64,000 nt of DNA from positions 214,695 through 278,694 of the forward strand of contig CANAAV010000001.1 of NCBI GenBank assembly GCA_947346365.1, given 5' to 3'. The DNA is from an uncultured Flavonifractor sp. (GTDB taxonomy: Bacteria; Bacillota; Clostridia; Oscillospirales; Oscillospiraceae). The stretch's first letter is position 1. Each line of letters opens with the position of its first letter. A program made the translations under genes and the position numbers. Positions 48,409 to 64,000 of this stretch are shown piece after piece. Under the pieces are notes generated by a model, which did not search any database, was not told the origin of the DNA, and worked only from the letters and a program-made list of their open reading frames with translations.

Positions 48409-48447
48409 CCCCGGAAGCCCTTGAAATCATGGGTTTCCGGGGATTTT
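48409..48447 (+). terminator. Terminator of queA at the prophage edge
   Basis: CCCCGGAAGCCC (48409-48420) pairs with GGGTTTCCGGGG (48431-48442, one G-U), then ATTTT. Its tail overlaps the recombinase stop codon, so it may sit at or near the attachment site. Confidence 0.75.
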
Positions 48448-50213
48448 CACTGTTCGGCGTCTGAGTATAAAAATCGGTGCTCTATGCCGTTTTTGAAGAG
48501 GATGGAGACCACTCGACCGTTTTTTATACAAAAGTTTTGTACGACCGAGTTGATGAAATCCTTGAGGATTCTGGAGTCGATTTTCTTGATGAATTTCTCG
48601 TAGTCGATGTACCGTTTCTCGTTGAGCTTCTGCGCCACGAGGAAGTAGGACGCCTTCGCCATGAACTCCTCGTCGGAGAGCGTCAGGTGCTCCGTGATGG
48701 AGTTTTCCACGACATCCAACCTCTCCGTCACGCTGTCCAGCGATGCCATCAGGTCATTCCGTGAGATTACATAGTCGGTCTCGGACATCCCCTCATCAGA
48801 ATATAGGTATAGGCTTTTCAGGCGGGCCAGCGCCCTCTCAAGGCGCCTCTTTTCCGACAGCAGGACATCCCGTTCGTCTGTGATACTGGACGCCTCCGCA
48901 GCGGTCAGGGCGGCAGACTTGTATTCGAGCCCCCCTGCCCCGCTCTGGAGATGGTTGTAGAGTTCCTCCAGACCGGGGCGCTCGATGCCAACCACGTCCT
49001 TGAACGTGTCGCCCCGGAGCAGCTTCTTCTGGAGCGTCTCGATGCTGGTGCTCTTGCCGAAGCTGTTACCGGCCCTGATGATGTTGGCGATGTAGTTCAT
49101 GGCGAACGGGCCGATGGTGATGTCGGAGACGAATTTGTTGTTGCAGTCATTGAAGCGCCGGCGGCGGGTGCATCCGTACTTGGACGGGGCCCAGCCCCCG
49201 TCACGCTCCCGATCCGTGGAGGCCGTCATGCCGCTCCCGCATACCCCGCAACGGAGCAGGCCAGCGAAGATGTGAACGTCCTTCCTGTTGTAGCTGGTGG
49301 TGCCGTTGGACTGCGACCGCTGGTTGGCCTGAAGGATGACCTCGACCCGCTTCTGCCTCGCCTTGTCCACAATGGCCGGGTGGTGGTCTTCGATGACGAC
49401 CCACTCGTCCTCGTCCCGGACATAGGAGGGAGTGTGGCTGCCGCCGTCCGCCTCGCATCGGTAGTTGTAGCGGTAGACACCGGCGTAGAACGGGCTGACC
49501 AGCATCTTCCTGGTGGTGGTCGGGTTCCATGGCTTCCCAGACCTCGCCCGGTATCCGTGGTCGTTCAGATACTTCGCCACGACGGTCAGTGACTTCTCGC
49601 TCTCGTAGAGGTCATAGATCAGGTTGATGACCTTGGCCTCGTCCTCGTTGATGGAGAACTCGCCGGTGTCCTTGTCATAGTCATAGCCGTATGGGATTTT
49701 ACCGCCGTTCCAGTCGCCCTTGCTGGCCCTGGACACCATGACGGCGCTGACACGCTCGCTGGTCATTTTCCGCTCCAGCTCGGCGAAGACCAGGATGATC
49801 CGCAGCATCGCCTCGCCGATTGCGGTGCTGGTGTCGAACTGCTCGTTCTTGGAGATGAAGGTGACGCCCAGGTTTTTGAGCTCCTGGTACATGGCCGTGA
49901 AGTCCAGCAGGTTCCGACTGATCCGGTCGATTTTCCAGACCAGGACGTGTGTGAACTCGCCATTGCGGACACGGGCTATCATCTGCTGGTACGCTGGCCG
50001 GTCTGTGTTCTTTGCCGAGAAGCCGGCGTCCTCGAAAATCTCGTATGAGTTGATGTTGAGGGCGTACTTGGCATAGTTGATGAGCTCCTCACGCTGCACC
50101 GGGAGGCTGGCCCGATCTGTCTGGTATTGGGTTGACACTCGGATATAGATTGCCGCCCTTGGCTCGGTGGTCGTTTTAGATACCCGCTTTTTTGGGGATT
50201 TACGCTTCGGCAT
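48447..50213 (-). CDS. Large serine recombinase (phage integrase)
   Basis: 588 residues. The N-terminal resolvase domain has its catalytic serine in YIRVST (residues 23-28) and the following SLPVQREELINYA, ERKMTSERV and GKIPYGY motifs. A recombinase domain comes next, then a zinc ribbon (CGVCGSGM, then CTRRRRFNDCNN) and a coiled-coil region near 420-480. It integrates and, with a directionality factor, excises the element. Located next to the left end and pointing outwards, as usual. Confidence 0.95.
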   Translation of the reverse strand: MPKRKSPKKRVSKTTTEPRAAIYIRVSTQYQTDRASLPVQREELINYAKYALNINSYEIFEDAGFSAKNTDRPAYQQMIARVRNGEFTHVLVWKIDRISRNLLDFTAMYQELKNLGVTFISKNEQFDTSTAIGEAMLRIILVFAELERKMTSERVSAVMVSRASKGDWNGGKIPYGYDYDKDTGEFSINEDEAKVINLIYDLYESEKSLTVVAKYLNDHGYRARSGKPWNPTTTRKMLVSPFYAGVYRYNYRCEADGGSHTPSYVRDEDEWVVIEDHHPAIVDKARQKRVEVILQANQRSQSNGTTSYNRKDVHIFAGLLRCGVCGSGMTASTDRERDGGWAPSKYGCTRRRRFNDCNNKFVSDITIGPFAMNYIANIIRAGNSFGKSTSIETLQKKLLRGDTFKDVVGIERPGLEELYNHLQSGAGGLEYKSAALTAAEASSITDERDVLLSEKRRLERALARLKSLYLYSDEGMSETDYVISRNDLMASLDSVTERLDVVENSITEHLTLSDEEFMAKASYFLVAQKLNEKRYIDYEKFIKKIDSRILKDFINSVVQNFCIKNGRVVSILFKNGIEHRFLYSDAEQ

Positions 50214-51279: not shown

Positions 51280-51444
51280 ATGAACCGTGTAGAAGAGCTC
51301 AGGAAGATTTTGGCCGAGGAGTATGGAATCCACTCCGACGCTGAGCTGGAGGTAGCTCTGAAGAAGGCCCCCAAAATCGACATATTTGCCATGGCCGGAA
51401 GCAGAGAGGTCTCGACCGCCAAGGGGCGAGCGAAAGCCTCGTGA
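51280..51444 (+). CDS. Small phage protein, unknown function
   Basis: 54 residues (start MNRVEELRKILAEEYGI), mostly helical and charged. GGAAGGAGGGGG ends 4 bases before ATG 51280, a strong ribosome site. No family recognised. It precedes the replication-initiator paralogues. Confidence 0.55.
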   Translation: MNRVEELRKILAEEYGIHSDAELEVALKKAPKIDIFAMAGSREVSTAKGRAKAS

Positions 51445-51476
51445 ACTACGACATCAAGAAAGGAAGGGATAAGCAG

Positions 51477-51824
51477 ATGTCGCCTGGAATGGAAGTCGAT
51501 AAGTGGATTGCGGTGCATGAGTGGGTCATTGGCCCGAAGCTCCGAAAATTCGCAAAGCTGGCCGGGTGCAACGAAGCAGAGGCGCTCGGCATCCTGTCTT
51601 ACCTCTGGCTGTGGGGGATTGGCGGGAACGCCGATCAGGACGGCCTTCTTCTGGAGGCTGACCTGGAGGACATCAAGTGTACGTTCAAGAGTACCATATC
51701 AAAGTGCCTTGACCCTCAGAGAGTGGCCGAGGCACTTGTAGAATCCGGCTGGGTCGATAAGCGGAGCGATGGGTACTACCTCAGCGATTGGGCCGAGTTC
51801 CAAGCGTTTTGCGAGGAAAGGTAG
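51477..51824 (+). CDS. Replication-initiator N-domain paralogue (short copy)
   Basis: 115 residues matching the first 110 residues of the next gene product: DKWIAVHEWVIGPKLRKF versus DRWIALHEGVVGPKLRDF, and AKLAGCNEAEALGIL identical in both. The fold is like the N-terminal domain of phage replisome organisers. It lacks the charged linker and C-terminal domain. AGGAAGGG lies 8 bases before ATG 51477. Possible roles are dominant regulator of the full copy or a decaying duplicate. Confidence 0.65.
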   Translation: MSPGMEVDKWIAVHEWVIGPKLRKFAKLAGCNEAEALGILSYLWLWGIGGNADQDGLLLEADLEDIKCTFKSTISKCLDPQRVAEALVESGWVDKRSDGYYLSDWAEFQAFCEER

Positions 51825-51834
51825 GGCGGTATGT

Positions 51835-52680
51835 ATGGACAGATGGATTGCCTTACACGAAGGAGTCGTCGGCCCGAAGCTCCGAGACTTCGCAAAGCTG
51901 GCCGGGTGCAACGAAGCAGAGGCGCTCGGCATTTTGGACTATGTATGGCTGTGGGCCGTGAAGGACAACGCTGACAGCAGCGGCCTCCTGAAGAAAGCTA
52001 ACCTGAATGACATCGCCGATGTCTTTGCCCTGAAAATTGACAAGAGCCGTGACCCTTTGAAGGTGGCGCAAGCTCTCGTCGATGCAGGGTGGATTGACGA
52101 GATGGATGGACTGTACTACATTCACGATTGGCCCGAGCATCAGGAGCCGTGGGTGCGTTATATGTCTGCAAAGGAAGCTGCGAATGAGCGAAAGAGACGG
52201 GAACGTGCCAGGAAGGCCGCCGCCAAGGCGGCTCAGACCGGGAAGCATGATGACGGCCCCGATAAGCTCCCTCCTGCGCCACCTGGAGACCCGCCTGACG
52301 AGCCGCCAAAAGGCAATCTGCCTGACGAAACGAAAAAGGCGGAGAAACCGGATGGCTCTCAGTACACATCGGCGTTTGAACAGTTTTGGGCAGCATACCC
52401 CAGAAAAGAGGAAAAGGCCAACGCCTACAAGAAGTATAAGGCCCGCCTGAACGACGGGTTCTCCGAGGAGGAGCTACTCAGAGCCGCCACGGCCTATGCG
52501 GCACAGTGTAAGAAGCTCCAGACGGAGAAGCACTACATCAAGCTCGGCAAGACGTTCCTGAGTGAAAGCACCCCGTTCGTTGACTTCCTACCGAAAGGAG
52601 GTTCCCCAGGCTACCAGCCCCCCGGAGGATCTGCTGGAGAGTACCACTACGACCCTGGGGACACGAGTGGCAGCCTATGA
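51835..52680 (+). CDS. Phage replication initiator/replisome organiser
   Basis: 281 residues: N-terminal DNA-binding-like domain (1-105), a Lys/Arg and Pro-rich linker (about 118-180), and a C-terminal helical domain (FEQFWAAYPRKEEKANAYKK, about 185-255) seen in phage initiators that recruit the helicase loader. The DnaC-like gene that would be its partner follows, separated only by the UDP-galactopyranose mutase gene. Its stop overlaps that gene by four bases. Confidence 0.75.
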   Translation: MDRWIALHEGVVGPKLRDFAKLAGCNEAEALGILDYVWLWAVKDNADSSGLLKKANLNDIADVFALKIDKSRDPLKVAQALVDAGWIDEMDGLYYIHDWPEHQEPWVRYMSAKEAANERKRRERARKAAAKAAQTGKHDDGPDKLPPAPPGDPPDEPPKGNLPDETKKAEKPDGSQYTSAFEQFWAAYPRKEEKANAYKKYKARLNDGFSEEELLRAATAYAAQCKKLQTEKHYIKLGKTFLSESTPFVDFLPKGGSPGYQPPGGSAGEYHYDPGDTSGSL

Positions 52681-56489: not shown

Positions 56490-57647
56490 CTAAATTCGGG
56501 GGGGGGGGGTAACTTCTTGTTGTATATTATGACAATTCGATTCTTTGAGGGCTTTGCATAGGTCTTTGACGATTTTCTTGAAGGATTCCATATTGGTAGT
56601 GTCGAGGAAAGCGTGAATGTCAATGTACTGTGTTCTGGGCGAACTCCAAGCATAGTCCTTGCCGTCGGCGCCCTTCCGATTTGGTAAGTCCGTCAGGAAG
56701 GCCCGTAGTTTGTCCTCGTCCCACTCGCTCCCAAGCGGAGGAAGGACGTAGGGGATGAAGAAGTCAACCTCGCAGAGAAAGCCGACAGACTTCTTCCACC
56801 ACGAGCTTACCGTAAAGAGCCGTTGGTCGCCCATCCGAACGCCGTAGGACGGGCAGCTCCCACCTCTGCCCGAGTAGCAGGTTAGGCCGAGGCCCTTTGA
56901 GAAGCTCCGAATTTCGTCTACGACCGGGGCCACCTCACCGAGACCGTGTTCCCGCAGATAGTCCGTGAAATCTGCATCGCTCCATGTCCGGTAACTTCGC
57001 TGGGCCGGCTGGCCCGTCTTTTTGCTGTCGAGGAGGCTGTTGCCTATGACGCTCGACGAGAGAAGAAGGGCGTCGGAGGTTTTGTATTGTCTAACCTCCA
57101 CTCCATAGACCTCGATCCCGTCCATGTTGCGGTCAAGGAACTCTATGAGTACCCGCAGCGTGTCCGGGATTTTGTCTGCCACGAAGACCAGACGCAGATG
57201 TTCCGCCTTCAGGTTGGTTGCCACCTGCCCCCAGAACTCGTCGTTGTCGAACTCGTCGGCGACCTCGCTGGAGTTGTTCTCCATGAATAGCTCCCGCAGC
57301 TTGTCTACCTTCCAGGTGCAGGCTCGACAGGCGTAGTCGCACATTTGCCCGATTACCTCCCGCCTGATCCTGGTGTCGGTGCTCCGCTTGACCTCGACGA
57401 GAACCGGCACACCATCCTCGCCCACCAGAAGGTGATCCAGGGAATAGGAGTTGGAGCCGTCTTCCGATTCCAGAATCTCCAGTTCCCGCTTAATCAGGAA
57501 CAGCCTGCAATCGTTGTCGCCCCACGCCCTTGCCAGCAGATGCGGATTGTCCTCGACGATTTTCTGGAGGTAGCTCTCCGCCTCGTAGGACTGTTCGCTC
57601 ATTTCCAGAGCAGCCCCATTCGACACGAAGAACAGTTTGTTTTCCAT
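56490..57647 (-). CDS. PD-(D/E)xK nuclease-like protein on the opposing strand
   Basis: 385 residues. The first 110 match a NucS/RecB-type nuclease core: YLQKIVEDNPHLL helix, Asp71, Glu85-Val-Lys87 (LVEVKRS) and Gln101-MCDY. The remainder is unassigned. Start ATG 57647 (MENKLFFVSNG); longer starts fall in the promoter. It has its own strong promoter and shared terminator and runs against the lytic genes, the layout of a gene expressed during lysogeny. Anti-phage or superinfection activity is an inference. The C-terminus is set by a 12-base C tract. Confidence 0.7.
   Translation of the reverse strand: MENKLFFVSNGAALEMSEQSYEAESYLQKIVEDNPHLLARAWGDNDCRLFLIKRELEILESEDGSNSYSLDHLLVGEDGVPVLVEVKRSTDTRIRREVIGQMCDYACRACTWKVDKLRELFMENNSSEVADEFDNDEFWGQVATNLKAEHLRLVFVADKIPDTLRVLIEFLDRNMDGIEVYGVEVRQYKTSDALLLSSSVIGNSLLDSKKTGQPAQRSYRTWSDADFTDYLREHGLGEVAPVVDEIRSFSKGLGLTCYSGRGGSCPSYGVRMGDQRLFTVSSWWKKSVGFLCEVDFFIPYVLPPLGSEWDEDKLRAFLTDLPNRKGADGKDYAWSSPRTQYIDIHAFLDTTNMESFKKIVKDLCKALKESNCHNIQQEVTPPPRI
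56498..56509. repeat. Homopolymer tract, 12 G (12 C in the nuclease gene)
   Basis: The run sits in the last codons of the nuclease-like gene (ending TPPPRI). Gain or loss of one base opens either of two other frames, each adding more than 40 residues. Confidence 0.85.
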
Positions 57648-57746: not shown

Positions 57747-58361
57747 ATGGAGAAGCGTACAGAGGTATGCAAAATGAGGGCCGGAGACCTGAAGACCGGC
57801 TTTGGGAATCCGAGGAAGATCAGCAAGAAGAAGCTGGATGAACTCGCAGATAGCCTTGAGATGCTTGGTGACTTCGGTATCTATCTGATTGATGAGCACG
57901 ACAACATCATCGGCGGGAACCAGCGGCTCAAGGCCGTGCTACGGAGGTTTGGCCCCGACACCATGCTCGACTGCAAGAGGCTTATCGGCTACACCGAGGC
58001 TGAGCTCCGGGCCATCAACATTAAGGACAACACCCACGCTGGCGAGTGGGATTTAGACCTGCTTGCCGACTGGACGGCAGACCTGAACATGAGCTTCGGC
58101 ATCGACCCCGCTGCCGAGAGCCCGCAGGAGAGGAACATCAAGATGATGGAGCTCATGAGGTACGAGAAATACGACTATGTGATGATCGTCTGCCGGAACG
58201 AAATCGACTACTTGCAGTTGACCAGGGCGCTGGGCATCGACGACGCCAAGGTGCTGGTCGCCAAGAAGAGGAAAATCCGGGCACGGGCCGTCTGGTACGA
58301 CGACATGAAGGCCCAGATTGTGAAGAAGCCGGAGGACGGCAAGAAGAACTACGACCTGTGA
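57747..58361 (+). CDS. ParB/Srx-fold protein
   Basis: 204 residues. The ParB N-terminal fold is marked by GNPRKISKKKLDELADSL and the IIGGNQRLKAVLRRFG motif. The C-terminal part (YEKYDYVMIVCRNEIDYLQL) is a separate small domain seen in phage ParB-like proteins. There is no ParA gene, so plasmid-style partition is unlikely; such proteins often accompany DNA modification genes. AGAGGTG precedes ATG 57747. First gene of the enzyme cassette. Confidence 0.75.
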   Translation: MEKRTEVCKMRAGDLKTGFGNPRKISKKKLDELADSLEMLGDFGIYLIDEHDNIIGGNQRLKAVLRRFGPDTMLDCKRLIGYTEAELRAINIKDNTHAGEWDLDLLADWTADLNMSFGIDPAAESPQERNIKMMELMRYEKYDYVMIVCRNEIDYLQLTRALGIDDAKVLVAKKRKIRARAVWYDDMKAQIVKKPEDGKKNYDL

Positions 58362-58377
58362 TGGAGGGGGTCAGAAC

Positions 58378-59400
58378 ATGATGACAGTATTGATTACCGG
58401 GTGCAACAACCATTTCCAGGGCATCGAACGGTGTCTGCACGACAACTATGAGCATGAGGAGATACGGACGATTGGGACAGACTGCAACGCTAACCACCTG
58501 CTGGGGACTGGATGCGGAGAGACCTTCGTTGTCCCGAGGAGCGACGACCCAGACTACATCCCGGAGATGCTGGCGATCTGCGATGAGATGAATGTGGATG
58601 TGATTCTCCCGTTCGTCACGACCGAGCTCCCCATCATGGCCGCCAACGCACACCGCTTCGCCGAAATCGGTACGGCTGTGTCTGTGTCGTCCCCGGAGTC
58701 TCTGGCTGTGGCGAACAACAAGATTGCCATGTATGAGCGGTTCGCCAAGTATATGCCCCTCCAGAGAGTGATCCGGGGCGCCGCCGGCGTGGACGAGTTC
58801 GCTCGGGAGATTGGATACCCCGGCACCCGTTTCTGCTGCAAGCTCCCTGAGAGCTGCGGAGGGAACGGGTTCTCTGTTGTGGATGAGAGGCTGGGCCGGG
58901 ACATCAGGCTCAGGAACAAGTGCGGCGTGGCCGGCTTCGTCACCTTGGATATGCTGAAGGAGCTGGCAGACAGCTACGTCGGAGAAATCATCCTGTCCGA
59001 GTACATCGCCGGTCACGATTACAGCGTATGTACCCTCTCGGGCTCCGGCGAGGTTCTTCACAGGTGCGGCTTCATCGGTCTGGAGATGGACTACGGGAGC
59101 GTGATGCTCGGGGAAATCCAGAAGAACGCCACCGCCTATGAGATTGCCGAGACTGTCTGCGCTGAGCTGGGCATTGACGGCAACGCCTGCTTCGACTTCA
59201 TGCTTGGGAAGGATGGGCGTGTGAAGCTGCTGGAGGTCAACCCCCGGCTGAGCGCCTCGCTCCCGTTCGTGGCGGCGGCTGGCCTGAACCTCCCGTATCT
59301 GCGGTGCAAGCAGCTCCTCGGCTATGACATTACCGGCTATGACATCAATGTGCGGTATGGTCTGAAGATGAGGAAGTATTATGAGTGCGAGTACGTTTAA
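58378..59400 (+). CDS. ATP-grasp domain ligase
   Basis: 340 residues: an N-terminal Rossmann-like part (VLITGCNNHFQGIERCL), an ATP-grasp core with KLPESCGGNGFSVV and SEYIAGHDYSV, and the metal-binding LLEVNPRLSAS near 290. The family joins a carboxylate to an amine, thiol or similar via an acyl phosphate; the substrate is unknown. In this cassette an amino-acid-like substrate processed by the PLP decarboxylase gene product is a reasonable guess. Overlaps the next gene by 20 bases. Confidence 0.82.
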   Translation: MMTVLITGCNNHFQGIERCLHDNYEHEEIRTIGTDCNANHLLGTGCGETFVVPRSDDPDYIPEMLAICDEMNVDVILPFVTTELPIMAANAHRFAEIGTAVSVSSPESLAVANNKIAMYERFAKYMPLQRVIRGAAGVDEFAREIGYPGTRFCCKLPESCGGNGFSVVDERLGRDIRLRNKCGVAGFVTLDMLKELADSYVGEIILSEYIAGHDYSVCTLSGSGEVLHRCGFIGLEMDYGSVMLGEIQKNATAYEIAETVCAELGIDGNACFDFMLGKDGRVKLLEVNPRLSASLPFVAAAGLNLPYLRCKQLLGYDITGYDINVRYGLKMRKYYECEYV

Positions 59401-60103
59401 CATCTACTGTATGTCGTACAAACGCTCCAATGCAATCATGACCAAGCACCTGTTTGAGTATTGCACCTACGTCGTCCGGGAGGAGGAGGCTGACCTCTAC
59501 CGGTCGGCCGGCGTTGACGACATACTGGCGATCCCGAAGGGCGAGGCATGGAATTTCATGTCCACCCTGTACTGGATAATCAACAACACCCCGGAGGATG
59601 TCATTTTCATTGCCGACGACGACATTGAGAAGTTCGTCTACCGGATGGATGACACCACCTACCTGGAGCTTCCCGATGGGAGCCCGGACGTGGAGAAGAT
59701 TACGAGTGAGGTAGAGCGGATTGCCCAGCTTCTATTTGACCTCGACCTCGGGCTGGCCTTCGACCAGCCGACCCTGGCCCCGTATGCGTATGACCGGGAG
59801 TTCCAGTTCAAAGGGATGCCTGGGCATATCCGCTGGGTGAACAAGAAGAAGCTGAGGGCGACCTACACACGGGGGGAGCTCACGCCCTCCGATGTAGATA
59901 TGGCCCTGCAAGAGCTAATGTATAACCGCATCATCCTCCAGCCGAAGTACCTGTGCGTCAAGGCGTTCATGGACAAGAACGATGGAGCCAAAAACGACCG
60001 GCGGGCATTTCTGGAGTTCACGGAGGCCATGCGAAATAAATGGGGGAAGTATTATGTGTATAACAAGAAACGAAACATCGGCGCCATACGGGTCAAGCGG
60101 TGA
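59381..60103 (+). CDS. Glycosyltransferase-like phage protein (DDD motif)
   Basis: 240 residues. A GT-A-like pattern: an N-terminal strand (NIYCMSYKRSNAIMTK), a middle VIFIADDDIEKFVYR with a DxD-type acidic triad at about 76-78, and a C-terminal domain with KAFMDKNDGAKNDRRAF. This is reminiscent of TAGT-type glycosyltransferases that decorate phage DNA bases; the assignment is by pattern only. It could use UDP-sugars such as the Galf made by the phage's own mutase. Confidence 0.6.
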   Translation: MSASTFNIYCMSYKRSNAIMTKHLFEYCTYVVREEEADLYRSAGVDDILAIPKGEAWNFMSTLYWIINNTPEDVIFIADDDIEKFVYRMDDTTYLELPDGSPDVEKITSEVERIAQLLFDLDLGLAFDQPTLAPYAYDREFQFKGMPGHIRWVNKKKLRATYTRGELTPSDVDMALQELMYNRIILQPKYLCVKAFMDKNDGAKNDRRAFLEFTEAMRNKWGKYYVYNKKRNIGAIRVKR

Positions 60104-61268
60104 TCCGCACTACCTGTTCGACCGGGAGGGGTTCGGCCAGAATATCGACGAGCTGCTGGAGGCGTTCCTGTCGAGGTACGGGAACTTCTCCCTGGCGTAC
60201 AGCTTCAAGACGAACTACCTGAAGGATGCCTGTGATGCCGTCAACGAGCGGGGTGGCCTCGCCGAAGTGGTGTCCCCCCAGGAGTATTCGTATGCCAGCG
60301 TCCTTGGCTTCCCTGAAAGCAGGATCGTCTATAACGGCGTCATTCCTGACGACGGCAAGCTGGCCGTCCTCGCCGGCGGCGGGATGGTGAACATCGACAG
60401 CCTGGCCGAGTATGAGCGTTTGGCCTGGTTGGCGCAGGAGCTCTCCACGCCCATCAGCATTGGAGTCCGTGTGAACCTCGACGTCCCATGGGCAACGTCT
60501 CGCTTCGGCATCCCGCCGGAGGGGGATGATTTTGCTGCCATCATGGAGCGCATATCCCAGAACGGCTTCGTGTCGCTCGGCGGCTTCCATAGCCACGTCC
60601 ACGGTGGCAGGGATGTCCGGTGCTGGGTGGAGAGGGCGGAGGCCCTGATAGATCTGGCGAAGCGGTACGGGGCTCGGTACATCGACCTCGGCGGCGGTAT
60701 GTGGGGGAAGATGCCGGAGGAGCTCAAGGCTCAGTTCAAAAGCCGACCGAACACCTACCAGGAGTACGGAGAGGCGGTCGGCGGTCTTTTTGCCAATGCG
60801 TTCCCGGACGAAAGCGTCAAGCTCGTCGTGGAGCCCGGCATCGGCCTCGTAGGCAGCGCCATGGAGTGTGCCAGCCACGTCGTAGGCATCAAAGAGATCA
60901 GGGGCAAGCAGTATGTCCAACTCGACATCAACGGCGCCGCAACGGCCTTCGACTACAACTGCGACGCCAACAGGATACGTAAGCCGTTCCACATCATACG
61001 GACAGGAACCGGCCAGCCTGTCGGCCTGCTCAATGCCGATCTGGTCGGAACCACCTGCACAGAGATTGATGTGCTGGTGCGGGACTACTGCGGAGTGCTG
61101 GCCGTTGGAGACACCATCGTGTTTGAGAACATCGGCGCCTACTCCCTCGTGACCTCCCGGCAGTTCATCACCCCGAGGCTCGGCGTGTATGACTCCAGGA
61201 CGAAGGAGTGTCTGCGGGAGCCGGAGTGTTTCGGAGATATGTTCGCAAAATATTTGCGAGAAACGTAA
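60054..61268 (+). CDS. PLP-dependent decarboxylase (DAP/ornithine decarboxylase fold)
   Basis: 404 residues, alanine-racemase-fold decarboxylase. The PLP lysine is K52 in AYSFKTNYL; GGFHSHVHGG, DLGGGMWG and VEPGIGLVGSA are the phosphate and substrate loops. It would decarboxylate an amino acid such as DAP, lysine or ornithine, or a modified form. Start ATG 60054 lies 4 bases after GGGGGAAG and overlaps the previous gene by 50 bases, showing tight coupling. A host lysA is not in view, and a phage copy suggests a dedicated use. Confidence 0.85.
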   Translation: MCITRNETSAPYGSSGDPHYLFDREGFGQNIDELLEAFLSRYGNFSLAYSFKTNYLKDACDAVNERGGLAEVVSPQEYSYASVLGFPESRIVYNGVIPDDGKLAVLAGGGMVNIDSLAEYERLAWLAQELSTPISIGVRVNLDVPWATSRFGIPPEGDDFAAIMERISQNGFVSLGGFHSHVHGGRDVRCWVERAEALIDLAKRYGARYIDLGGGMWGKMPEELKAQFKSRPNTYQEYGEAVGGLFANAFPDESVKLVVEPGIGLVGSAMECASHVVGIKEIRGKQYVQLDINGAATAFDYNCDANRIRKPFHIIRTGTGQPVGLLNADLVGTTCTEIDVLVRDYCGVLAVGDTIVFENIGAYSLVTSRQFITPRLGVYDSRTKECLREPECFGDMFAKYLRET

Positions 61269-61276
61269 CGGCGTAA

Positions 61277-61306
61277 TTGACGTACAAGTACCCAAAAAGT
61301 TATAAT
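61277..61306 (+). promoter_or_regulatory. Phage promoter of the TTGACG type (copy 1)
   Basis: TTGACG (61277-61282), an 18-bp spacer and TATAAT (61301-61306), followed at once by AAAGTTA. The same -35, spacer length and trailing AAAGTTA recur at 62591. Confidence 0.6.
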
Positions 61307-61351
61307 AAAGTTAGGAAATCCATGCAATGCCATCAGAAAAGGAGGATAAAA

Positions 61352-62065
61352 ATGGCTGGAAATCCGAGAACGAAAAATGGGTACAGTATGTTCGAGATGT
61401 CGTCAATGATCCAGAAAGCGATACGGCGGTGCGACATCCCTCATGCGGCGTATGCGGCGGCCGAGCTGTATCCAGGATACCGAACGCTGCTATGGAATAG
61501 GCTCCTGACCGTTTCGGCTGAGGACTGCTACGGCATCATGACCAGGGAGATCATGGCGCTGGCCCAGGCAGATGAACGGCTGAACGGGAAGAAGCCGGCA
61601 GACAAGGCCAACATGGTGTTCCTGGCGAAAGCTGTGATTCTGCTGTGTATGGCCCGGAAGAACAGGGACGCCGATTACGTCGCCTGCAACTACCTGTGGG
61701 GAAACCGGAGGCTGACCGAGGGCGAGGTCATTGACCTGATCGACAGTTCCGAAGTGGAGCGGCTCATGCGTGAGGAACCGAATTTCCGTGTCCCGGCCTA
61801 TGTTTTCGATGTCCACACCTACCGGGGGAAGCAGCAGGGGAAAACGAGACTGGACTTCTTCATCGAGGAGAACGAAGCCTTGGAGCCCCGGCAGATGAGC
61901 CTGTTCGACGAGGGCAGCTTCGGCGAGTATTACCAGCGGAGCCATGACGCCGGGTTCAGGCTCACCCCCGCATACGACCAACGGTGGAAAGATTACATGG
62001 CCGGGCGGGAGACAGACCCCACGCACAACGGGAAGAACTTCCCTGACCCGGAAGATGGGAGTTGA
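61352..62065 (+). CDS. RarA C-terminal-domain-like phage protein
   Basis: 237 residues from ATG 61352, 6 bases after AAAGGAGGA. MIQKAIRRCDIPHAAYAAAEL and NRLLTVSAEDCYGI resemble the oligomerisation domain of RarA/MgsA, a fork-repair ATPase, and the RGKQQGKTRLDFFIEEN segment matches its end. There is no Walker motif, so the ATPase domain is absent. It could interact with host RarA or clamp-loader factors. Confidence 0.6.
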   Translation: MAGNPRTKNGYSMFEMSSMIQKAIRRCDIPHAAYAAAELYPGYRTLLWNRLLTVSAEDCYGIMTREIMALAQADERLNGKKPADKANMVFLAKAVILLCMARKNRDADYVACNYLWGNRRLTEGEVIDLIDSSEVERLMREEPNFRVPAYVFDVHTYRGKQQGKTRLDFFIEENEALEPRQMSLFDEGSFGEYYQRSHDAGFRLTPAYDQRWKDYMAGRETDPTHNGKNFPDPEDGS

Positions 62066-62070
62066 GATTG

Positions 62071-62574
62071 ATGGTAGAATCGGTAGCTGCTGAGCTGCTG
62101 CCCCTGACCTCGCTGGACAAGGCGGAGGTGGAGGGGTACTGGCGGGAGTTCACGGAGAACGGAGAGACTGAGAACGTCCTGTGGGAACTCGCCACCCTCA
62201 GCATCGACGAATACTACGAACGCCAGGGAGCCGACCGGCGGAATCGCCGGTTCGGCTTCCTGGTGGGCGGGGCCCTGGTGGGGATGGTGAGGATCAGTTC
62301 CCGCATCAACCATGAGGCGAACGGGAAGGTCGGATACAGCATCCGGCCTTCCTGCCGTAAGAGGCTGTACGCCCCGACGCTCCTGCGGCTGGCCGAGGAG
62401 TATTGCTGCCTGAACGGCATAACGCCGGTGACTGCCTGCGTTGATGTGAGAAACGAGGCATCGCTCAAAGCGTTCCGGCTGGCTGGCTTTGTCCCGACCG
62501 GCCGGGAGTTCGACTGGACGTACCAGAGGAGGGCGGTAGAGCTCTCTCTGCCTGAGCATCTTAATAATCTGTGA
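62071..62574 (+). CDS. Phage GNAT N-acetyltransferase
   Basis: 167 residues with GFLVGGALVGMVRISS, the GYSIRPSCRKRLYAPTLL acetyl-CoA loop and VDVRNEASLKAFRLAGF. Start ATG 62071 has GGGAG 10 bases upstream; a TTG at 62062 is the alternative. It lies six bases after the RarA-C-like gene and closes the enzyme cassette. Target unknown; small-molecule amine, protein or nucleobase amine are all possible. Confidence 0.8.
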   Translation: MVESVAAELLPLTSLDKAEVEGYWREFTENGETENVLWELATLSIDEYYERQGADRRNRRFGFLVGGALVGMVRISSRINHEANGKVGYSIRPSCRKRLYAPTLLRLAEEYCCLNGITPVTACVDVRNEASLKAFRLAGFVPTGREFDWTYQRRAVELSLPEHLNNL

Positions 62575-63016: not shown

Positions 63017-63532
63017 GTGGCAAACCCGAATGGGAATCCCCAGAACCTCAAACCAGTCCGAACCAAGAAAGAAGCAAAAAAACGTGGGGCCGCTGGCGGC
63101 AAGAAAAGCGGGGAGACCCGCAGGAAGAAAAGAGACGCCAAACAGGCCATCCAACTCGTCCTGAACATGGCTGCCACCGGGAACCTCGACAAGAAGCTGG
63201 AGGGGCTTGGGTTTGATGAAGAAGACCGCACGAACATGACCGGCATCACCGTCGCCATGATGATGCAGGCTGTCAACGGGAACGTCAAAGCCTACAAGGT
63301 GCTGATGGACTACGGCGGCTTCCACCCAGATCAGAAGCAGAGGGACAAGGAAAGCGAGGCCCGTATCCGAAGGATGGACGAGGGTGCCTACCTGCCCGCA
63401 GGCGGCGCAGACGATGACGGCGGGGACGATGTTGTCGTAGTCCTCCCCGACAATGGACGTGGAGACGGCCCGGAACCCGTCATGGAACCTCCAGAAAGCA
63501 CCGGGAAGGAGGACGAGGACGGCGATGGGTAA
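63017..63532 (+). CDS. Probable small terminase subunit or packaging accessory
   Basis: 171 residues, start GTG 63017 behind AGAGGTGG. N-terminus very basic (KKEAKKRGAAGGKKSGETRR, about 18-37), a helical middle (MTGITVAMMMQAVNGNVKAY) and a strongly acidic C-terminus. It occupies the small-terminase position and overlaps the large terminase by 8 bases. The family match itself is weak. Confidence 0.55.
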   Translation: MANPNGNPQNLKPVRTKKEAKKRGAAGGKKSGETRRKKRDAKQAIQLVLNMAATGNLDKKLEGLGFDEEDRTNMTGITVAMMMQAVNGNVKAYKVLMDYGGFHPDQKQRDKESEARIRRMDEGAYLPAGGADDDGGDDVVVVLPDNGRGDGPEPVMEPPESTGKEDEDGDG

Positions 63533-64000
63533 GATTATACTCCAGCCCCAGCCTGGGCCCCAGACGGCGTTTATGGCGTCCTCCGCAGATGTGGTGGTAT
63601 ACGGCGGCGCCGCCGGAGGCGGGAAGACCTACGGCCTGCTGCTGTCCGCCCTCCGGTACAAGAACGTCGATGGGTACAACTGCACCGTGTTCCGCCGGAC
63701 GTACAAGCAGGTGTTTTCCCCTGGTGGCCTGTGGGATGAGGCCACCAAGATGTACGCCGGGATACGAGGCGCCCAGGCAAGGGTGTCGAACGGAGAGTGG
63801 AGGTTCAGAGATAAGCGAGGCCGCCCAGCCGGCAAGGTGCTGTTCAAGCACATCGGAAGCGATGCAGAGCTGCCCAATTATCAGGGCAGCCAGATTTGTG
63901 GCTTGTGCTTCGACGAGCTGACACACTTCAACGAACACCAGTTCTTCTATATGCTGTCCCGTAACCGTTCGACCTGCGGCGTCAGGCCCTATGTCAAGGC
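63525..64000 (+). CDS. terL: Large terminase subunit (partial, runs off the edge)
   Basis: 158 codons visible, open to the window end. The frame starts at ATG 63525 (MGKIILQPQPG). Walker A-like YGGAAGGGKTYGLLLSAL lies at about 24-41, followed by FRRTYKQVF (adenine/Q region) and the Walker B-type ICGLCFDELTHF near 125-136. This is the ATPase half of a phage packaging motor; the nuclease half lies outside the window. Confidence 0.9.
   Translation, partial: MGKIILQPQPGPQTAFMASSADVVVYGGAAGGGKTYGLLLSALRYKNVDGYNCTVFRRTYKQVFSPGGLWDEATKMYAGIRGAQARVSNGEWRFRDKRGRPAGKVLFKHIGSDAELPNYQGSQICGLCFDELTHFNEHQFFYMLSRNRSTCGVRPYVK

Follow-up and report, generated by a model that had tools for sequence, protein, structure and literature searches.

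A conserved ParB–TAGT glycosyltransferase–RarA-C-like triad with exchangeable sugar genes, a candidate DNA hypermodification module of phages

The known sugars attached to DNA sit on pyrimidines prepared with a hydroxymethyl, hydroxy, or similar group, and in the TET/JBP–C5-methyltransferase clusters by which phages hypermodify cytosine, a glycosyltransferase of the TAGT (TET-Associated Glycosyltransferase) family is encoded in one cluster with further tailoring enzymes. Examples of sugars on such prepared pyrimidines are given in PMC13390438, PMC13216743, and PMC5977210 (here and below, statements on cited studies refer to the parts of these papers that were available). The TAGT enzyme of phage T6, a GT-A enzyme according to the model in the study concerned, adds sugar to DNA by acting on glucosylated hydroxymethylcytosine (PMC13216743), and the DNA of phage SP-15 carries glucose and phosphoglucuronate on dihydroxypentyluracil (PMC5977210). 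Here, we analyzed a cassette of six genes in a prophage of an uncultured Flavonifractor sp. (NCBI GenBank assembly GCA_947346365.1, contig CANAAV010000001.1, positions 214,695 to 278,694 of the forward strand); “the window” denotes this whole stretch of 64,000 nucleotides. Three of the genes, encoding a ParB-like protein, a glycosyltransferase, and a protein resembling the C-terminal part of RarA, form a core whose members co-occur in Bacillota, Bacteroidota, and Actinomycetota phages. We propose, with a probability of roughly 0.7, that this triad and its variable sugar genes constitute a phage DNA hypermodification module, in which a TAGT-type enzyme places a sugar on the bases of phage DNA with the help of the ParB and RarA-C-like partners.

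We collected relatives through each of the three core genes and considered a locus to have flanks when at least 3 kb were available on both sides. The glycosyltransferase search returned 31 viral loci and 17 loci in named genomes, with hosts in Oscillospiraceae, Lachnospiraceae, Ruminococcus, Peptostreptococcaceae, Bacteroides, Prevotella, Parabacteroides, and other Bacteroidales. Across all 48, ParB was found within 6 kb in 42 and the RarA-like gene in 46; where flanks were present, both partners were found at every locus (31/31 each). The search with the RarA-C-like gene, for which the best 80 of 198 relatives were taken, recovered the glycosyltransferase at 43/43 loci with flanks, and ParB at 26/43 with our first model and at 43/43 once a second model, seeded with the divergent L091 ParB, was included. 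Searching with ParB gave 62 loci, 58 with a glycosyltransferase and 52 with a RarA-like gene. Pooled and made distinct by glycosyltransferase sequence, the loci numbered 115, of which 77 had flanks; counting gene content within 8 kb, ParB was present in all 77 and the RarA-like gene in 76 (the exception being L155). The counts of 31/31 and 43/43 are fairer than the pooled ones, and they bear out the conserved co-occurrence in related phages that an initial annotation of the window had proposed as a check.

Gene arrangement was similarly uniform: 101 of 102 distinct triads lie on one strand, and 96 run in the order ParB–glycosyltransferase–RarA. Terminase models, which cover some terminase families only, matched within 4 kb of 59 of the 102 triads, and the neighboring terminase varies: that of the window is phrog_979, and locus L126 has a phrog_15 terminase, which stands between the glycosyltransferase and the RarA gene. 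A tblastn search of the window glycosyltransferase against the phage collection gave no match; it was the RarA-like gene and the L126 glycosyltransferase that led to cultured relatives. Among Microbacterium phage records, 56 matched the RarA-C-like gene and 56 the glycosyltransferase (with RefSeq and GenBank copies each counted). Of these cultured phages, Paschalis (lytic; host Microbacterium foliorum) was read for gene order: a sigma factor, the ParB-like gene (gene 83), the glycosyltransferase (84), a UDP-glucose dehydrogenase (85), and an “AAA-ATPase” (86). A second Paschalis gene annotated as a glycosyltransferase lies near the triad (L188, 9516–10841; 441 amino acids) and has no Pfam match at 0.1. 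Among the papers that our searches of the open-licence PMC literature listed, no title or abstract describes the ParB–TAGT–RarA set.

Taken alone, the window glycosyltransferase is a weak match, but by sequence comparison its relatives place it securely in the TAGT family (PF20691). This model matched 19 of 20 triad records, 12 of them over the cut-off, and all 19 matches fell inside the triad glycosyltransferase. The L126 enzyme matched the whole model (50.4 bits) and, over most of its length, phrog_842, the T-even beta-glucosyl-hydroxymethylcytosine-alpha-glucosyltransferase (8.4e-19), which the window enzyme also matched at 9.6e-4. A profile of 39 window-type glycosyltransferases aligned with a profile containing the L126 enzyme (hhalign: 100%, 1.5e-46, 229 columns), the latter profile also holding L145, an intermediate nearer to the window type. 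The profiles have in common the DDD at 79–81, a DxD at 171–173, and later G and W residues, and D79–D81 is invariant in 39/39 window-type sequences.

The two constant partners were characterized in the same way. The window ParB-like protein matched the ParB family phrog_620 (1.1e-18) and the N-terminal part (positions 31–148 of 633) of phrog_498, a DNA methyltransferase (1.7e-17). It had no Pfam match at E ≤ 1; among four divergent triad homologues, two passed PF02195 (26.4 and 34.9 bits; cut-off 26.3) and two fell below. Partition ParB proteins carry a DNA-binding helix-turn-helix domain after the N-terminal domain. No Pfam match to a helix-turn-helix domain was seen in the window protein (E ≤ 1), in that of L027, or in the four homologues, and we therefore rejected a canonical partition protein; the C-terminal part is another conserved domain, with E140, Y144, K176, and R180 invariant in seven diverse homologues.

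The RarA-C-like protein of the window matched phrog_16866, a family of unknown function (8.2e-42), and a PHROG named ATPase at 0.0052. MgsA_C (PF12002) did not match it, and matched three of four relatives at 14.3–21.2 bits, under the cut-off of 27, and the fourth not at all. The L126 homologue matched the ATPase family phrog_33349 (4e-13), and a profile of the family had weak PDB matches (E 0.02–0.8), five of six to chains named ATPase (AAA-type); they include 3bge, 2r9g, 2qw6, 3ctd, and 8g28. Scans of the window protein and of relatives gave no match to an AAA+ ATPase domain. The fifth gene of the cassette is probably a stand-alone RarA C-terminal-like protein with no visible ATPase domain, so that the initial guess at its family, in view of the weak MgsA_C and PDB matches, was probably right. 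The protein seems doubled into two units (~330–450 amino acids) in L012, L019, L021, L022, and L045 and is single elsewhere; the doubled forms sit in several Bacteroidales relatives and several relatives of class II, described below.

DNA is the favored target because the glycosyltransferase appears to be of the TAGT family and the ParB-like protein aligns with N-terminal positions in a family of phage DNA methyltransferases; the RarA-C-like partner and the location beside packaging genes point the same way. The target, the order of steps, and the sugar donor are all matters that we infer.

Around this fixed core, the tailoring genes are swappable. The window version (class I) consists of an ATP-grasp ligase and a pyridoxal phosphate (PLP) decarboxylase, with or without UDP-galactopyranose mutase (UGM) and a GNAT acetyltransferase. 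The ATP-grasp protein scored above the cut-offs of PF15632 (ATPgrasp_Ter, 54.5 bits) and PF21360 (PylC-like_N, 50.4 bits) and under those of the PRK12767 models. The PLP decarboxylase passed PF02784 (Orn_Arg_deC_N, 54.4 bits) and PF00278 (Orn_DAP_Arg_deC, 27.0 bits), with the lysine of its YSxKTN motif invariant in 6/6, and the GNAT protein passed PF13302 (Acetyltransf_3, 37.0 bits) and PF00583 (33.3 bits). UGM matched the equivalog TIGR00031 (396.3 bits; cut-off 303.75) and PF03275 (256 bits), and in relatives it stands directly before ParB or ParB’s neighbor. In a second class, a PIG-L deacetylase (PF02585, 62.6 bits) and WbqC (PF08889, 202.6 bits) replace the ATP-grasp and PLP genes, some loci adding a PglD-like hexapeptide transferase, while ParB, the glycosyltransferase, and the RarA-C-like gene remain. 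A further set combines a DegT aminotransferase (PF01041, 312.9 bits) and a PseB/FnlA-like dehydratase (PF02719, 319.9 bits) with PIG-L and WbqC, and another holds a short UDP-glucose dehydrogenase-like protein (PF00984, 55.3 bits). The proteins of this last kind in L088 (2825–3577) and L188 (12549–13331) have 250–260 amino acids and match the central domain, at most also the N-terminal domain, of the family.

Among the 77 distinct loci, an ATP-grasp gene was present within 8 kb in 27, PLP in 20, UGM in 16, a GNAT-type gene in 16 (two models, 6 + 10), PIG-L in 19, WbqC in 18, a PglD-like gene in 4, DegT in 9, PseB in 8, and UDP-glucose dehydrogenase in 4; none of these modelled families was found in 28. 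The tailoring sets are coherent: PLP occurred in 20/27 ATP-grasp loci and 0/50 others (Fisher 6e-13), UGM in 16/27 and 0/50 (Fisher 1e-9), and the GNAT16 model in 10/27 and 0/50, whereas WbqC occurred in 0/27 and 18/50 (Fisher 1e-4). Mapped onto a tree of these 77 glycosyltransferases, tailoring class required 7 changes, compared with a shuffled mean of 38.2, although the tree has long branches (with a warning from the tool) and near-copies also cluster labels; the low number of changes indicates that the glycosyltransferase goes with its donor pathway. The initial annotation had read the cassette as one that may make and attach a modification, assigning roles to the ATP-grasp, glycosyltransferase, PLP, and GNAT genes and none to the ParB and RarA-C-like genes. 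A conserved enzyme cassette that probably does so is upheld, but the ATP-grasp, PLP, and GNAT-type genes are optional extras (27, 20, and 16 of the 77 loci), and the two genes left without a role form the near-invariant core together with the glycosyltransferase. The limits it drew (57747–62574) also left out the likely sugar-donor gene, UGM.

In the window, six intact open reading frames lie tightly packed between early phage genes and the terminase, as first annotated (Table 1), and all four enzyme family calls made at that time held, those for ATP-grasp, PLP, and GNAT above Pfam cut-offs and that for the glycosyltransferase through its relatives. The 20- and 50-base overlaps between genes were likewise borne out: they are the same in L003 and kept within a few bases in L004 (23/50) and L005 (23/44). 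Against the near-identical copy in L034, the window glycosyltransferase showed a nonsynonymous rate (dN) of 0.004 and a synonymous rate (dS) of 0.323; dS was saturated against L003, and only the L034 values were used for selection. We conclude that the cassette is real and intact and that purifying selection acts on it; it is not a chance assembly, since dN is far below dS and diverged phages have the gene set as well. The integration end of the prophage is marked by a large serine recombinase at 48447–50213 (PF00239 and PF07508, above cut-off); at the other end, the contig end cuts the terminase large subunit, and the remainder of the prophage lies outside the contig. The host genome carries a second UGM, so the prophage copy is not the sole source of UDP-galactofuranose, and its use by the cassette is suggested by co-occurrence.

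Table 1 Features of the cassette and its surroundings in the window
Feature	Coordinates	Strand	Remarks
ParB-like protein, 204 aa	57747..58361	+	ParB N-terminal domain and conserved C-terminal domain; core gene 1
ATP-grasp ligase, 340 aa	58378..59400	+	Carbamoyl-phosphate-synthase-like, PylC-like N domain; class I tailoring gene
Glycosyltransferase, TAGT (PF20691) superfamily, 240 aa	59381..60103	+	DDD at residues 79–81; core gene 2
Fold-type III PLP decarboxylase, 404 aa	60054..61268	+	Class I tailoring gene
Stand-alone RarA/MgsA C-terminal-like protein (probable), 237 aa	61352..62065	+	Core gene 3
GNAT N-acetyltransferase, 170 aa	62062..62574	+	Start codon uncertain: TTG 62062 or ATG 62071
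UDP-galactopyranose mutase (UGM/Glf), 374 aa	52677..53801	+	Probable sugar-donor gene, ~4 kb upstream of the cassette
Terminase large subunit, N-terminal part	63525..63998	+	phrog_979, 2.2e-45; PF03237, 32.6 bits, above cut-off; landmark outside the pathway

A known or candidate defense system was also considered and rejected, as none of the six cassette proteins had a PADLOC match at 0.01; UGM had a marginal desaturase match only (0.0022). The 385-amino-acid gene directly before the cassette (56490–57647, minus strand) matches the candidate defense family PDC-S11 (PADLOC, 2e-14), and homologues of it were present in 7 of the first 49 sets mapped (window counted), near the cassette in the maps. 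Further upstream, at 51441–52680, two consecutive early genes have a similar N-terminal module of ~60 amino acids, as if by tandem duplication; the longer of the two has no Pfam match.

In the proposed DNA hypermodification module, the TAGT-family enzyme would transfer a sugar onto the bases of phage DNA, the ParB-like and RarA-C-like proteins, judging by their families, would hold or guide it on the DNA, and the variable genes would build or trim that sugar. For the window version, we envisage that UGM, identified by its family score, may supply UDP-galactofuranose, the ATP-grasp ligase may join an amino acid to the sugar or to a base side chain, the PLP decarboxylase would turn the attached amino acid into an amine by removing its carboxyl group, much as FslC treats N-citrylornithine, and the GNAT protein would acetylate that amine. 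The modification would shield packaged DNA from host restriction and other DNA-targeting defense; swapping sugar genes while the core stays constant is reminiscent of the known arms race over DNA sugars.

N-citrylornithine decarboxylase acts on an amino acid after ligation. It was the best PDB match of our PLP profile (7kh2, 8.3e-55), followed by diaminopimelate decarboxylase (7.4e-39); with the single window protein, lysA scored slightly above FslC, both under cut-off. Because the profile ranks N-citrylornithine decarboxylase above diaminopimelate decarboxylase, ligation by ATP-grasp, decarboxylation in place, and acetylation by GNAT would be the most economical route, which we put forward tentatively and at less than even odds. 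The likeness to FslC (7KH2) of the rhizoferrin pathway lies in this ligate-then-decarboxylate logic; the ligase family and the product of that pathway differ from those of the cassette. The order given in the initial annotation (make an amine, ligate it, add a sugar, acetylate) found no support.

Several observations weigh against the proposed DNA hypermodification module. Every locus was found through a triad gene and the models were built from these loci, so the pool is partly circular, and the RarA-like survey rests on the best 80 relatives. Among ParB-search loci with flanks, the glycosyltransferase was present in 43/45 and the RarA-like gene in 39/45; neither gene is present in L183 and L187, whose ParB matches are weak. 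In Arthrobacter phage Kitkat, a distant RarA-C-like gene (L190, 5935–6654) has no annotated ParB within the 12 kb shown and no adjacent glycosyltransferase; a glycosyltransferase lies ~4.5 kb downstream. The window glycosyltransferase itself scored 19.8 bits against TAGT, under the Pfam cut-off of 27.5, and the Paschalis enzyme, which no Pfam model matched, was the sole miss of PF20691 among the 20 records. The classes are at times mixed (PIG-L in 2/27 ATP-grasp loci), and WbqC, PIG-L, PglD, UGM, and PseB are also typical of pathways for surface polysaccharides and flagellin. Finally, the enzyme that makes the hydroxyl acceptor of known TAGTs was not found in the records searched. The thymidylate-synthase family (PF00303) matched 0/17 and 0/20, or 0/37, records (controls positive in 9/14 genomes), and C5-methyltransferase (PF00145) 2/17 and 0/20, or 2/37 (controls positive in 10/14); many of the 37 records may be fragments, and one, Paschalis, is a complete phage genome. 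Tet_JBP (PF12851) matched 0/17 records and 0/291 genomes, with no positive control matched, so that absence of TET is not established by this search. A Pfam scan of 14 Paschalis proteins, out of 91 annotated features, named no hydroxylase. In this the relatives resemble the window, in which no base hydroxylase had been seen at first annotation. Either the acceptor is made by an unrecognized or unseen enzyme, or it is made by the triad, or the sugar is placed on an unmodified base.

The first of these options underlies the rival that survives best, which shares the DNA target with the hypermodification module and whose odds overlap with it: an ordinary hydroxymethyl- or hydroxy-pyrimidine would be made by a hydroxylase encoded elsewhere or of an unrecognized family, in a standard TET/JBP- or T-even-like pathway. 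Known pathways that put sugars on DNA start from such a handle. T-even phages and Mosigvirus are examples (PMC13216743, PMC13390438), and the incompleteness of many records and the uncontrolled Tet_JBP search also favor it. The absence of the thymidylate-synthase family from the 37 records, for which the controls worked, the scarcity of C5-methyltransferase, and the 28 loci that hold the triad with no modelled tailoring family speak against it, and we consider it possible but well short of even odds. Under a bolder and still doubtful version of our own proposal, the triad would be a self-sufficient DNA glycosylation machine that acts on an unmodified base, or on an acceptor it makes itself, with no separate hydroxylase; phages would swap the sugar module, and the product here would be galactofuranose-bearing DNA with an amino-acid-derived amine.

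These counts also set the triad apart from the described systems. It has in common with TAGT glucosylation in T2–T6 the glycosyltransferase family, the DDD motif, and being phage-encoded. The T-even system has a dCMP hydroxymethylase, whose family was not found in the 37 records, and a first glycosyltransferase, whereas the triad enzyme has ParB and RarA-C-like partners and tailoring genes; we set aside a T-even route with a phage thymidylate-synthase-type hydroxymethylase on the absence of that family. As for the TET/JBP–C5-methyltransferase clusters, C5-methyltransferase was found in two of the 37 triad records and TET/JBP in none of the 17, the latter with no control. The CmoA–CmoX–CmoY system for 5-carboxymethylcytosine is likewise a phage cluster, often with a ParBc gene, such genes being reported beside CmoX DNA-modification genes, and its ATP-dependent amide ligase joins an amino acid to DNA, as the window ligase may (PMC12783734). 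CmoY is asparagine-synthetase-like rather than ATP-grasp, CmoX is a homologue of C5-methyltransferases, a family not found in 35/37 triad records, and the available parts of the paper describe no glycosyltransferase core (PMC12783734); with C5-methyltransferase in so few records, this route too was set aside. SP-15 resembles the triad in carrying a sugar and a uronic acid on DNA, ascribed to a cluster like those for envelope polysaccharides, and differs in its proposed hydroxymethyluridylate synthase and 10-gene cluster (PMC5977210); an SP-15 RarA match covers 46% of the query, and the triad is not established there.

The remaining alternatives place the sugar on something other than DNA. The module may glycosylate a virion protein (capsid or tail) or another phage protein, with the tailoring genes varying the glycan against recognition. 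PIG-L, WbqC, PglD-like, PseB, and DegT proteins resemble those of protein and surface glycan pathways, the module adjoins packaging genes, and virion glycosylation by phage glycosyltransferases is known in mycobacteriophages. Yet the characterized member of the glycosyltransferase family acts on DNA, and the constant partners are a ParB that matches phage DNA methyltransferases and a RarA-C-like protein, which makes this explanation improbable. That the module alters host surface glycans or another host molecule, as in superinfection exclusion, is very improbable: UGM, ATP-grasp, and glycosyltransferase genes do occur in capsule and O-antigen loci and the host has its second UGM, but the hosts come from three phyla with different envelopes, and the ParB and RarA-like partners would be left unexplained.

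The gene set is real and widespread and, as far as its sequences indicate, is probably a variant of phage DNA hypermodification, DNA being the presumed target. In a 2026 study, 288 of 753 phage genomes had a solitary TAGT homologue and neither the known alpha- nor the known beta-glucosyltransferase, and these homologues were regarded as potential novel transferases (PMC13216743). For such solitary TAGT-type enzymes, which may or may not belong to triad phages, the triad offers a genomic setting, two constant partners, and swappable sugar pathways. Cultured lytic Microbacterium phages carry a version of the triad, which makes the module testable. If DNA is indeed the target, temperate and other phages would hold a large class of DNA sugars, which would bring new enzymes for DNA labelling and new targets for restriction-type defense; and if no hydroxylase is needed, the triad would break the expectation that DNA sugars require a prepared base.

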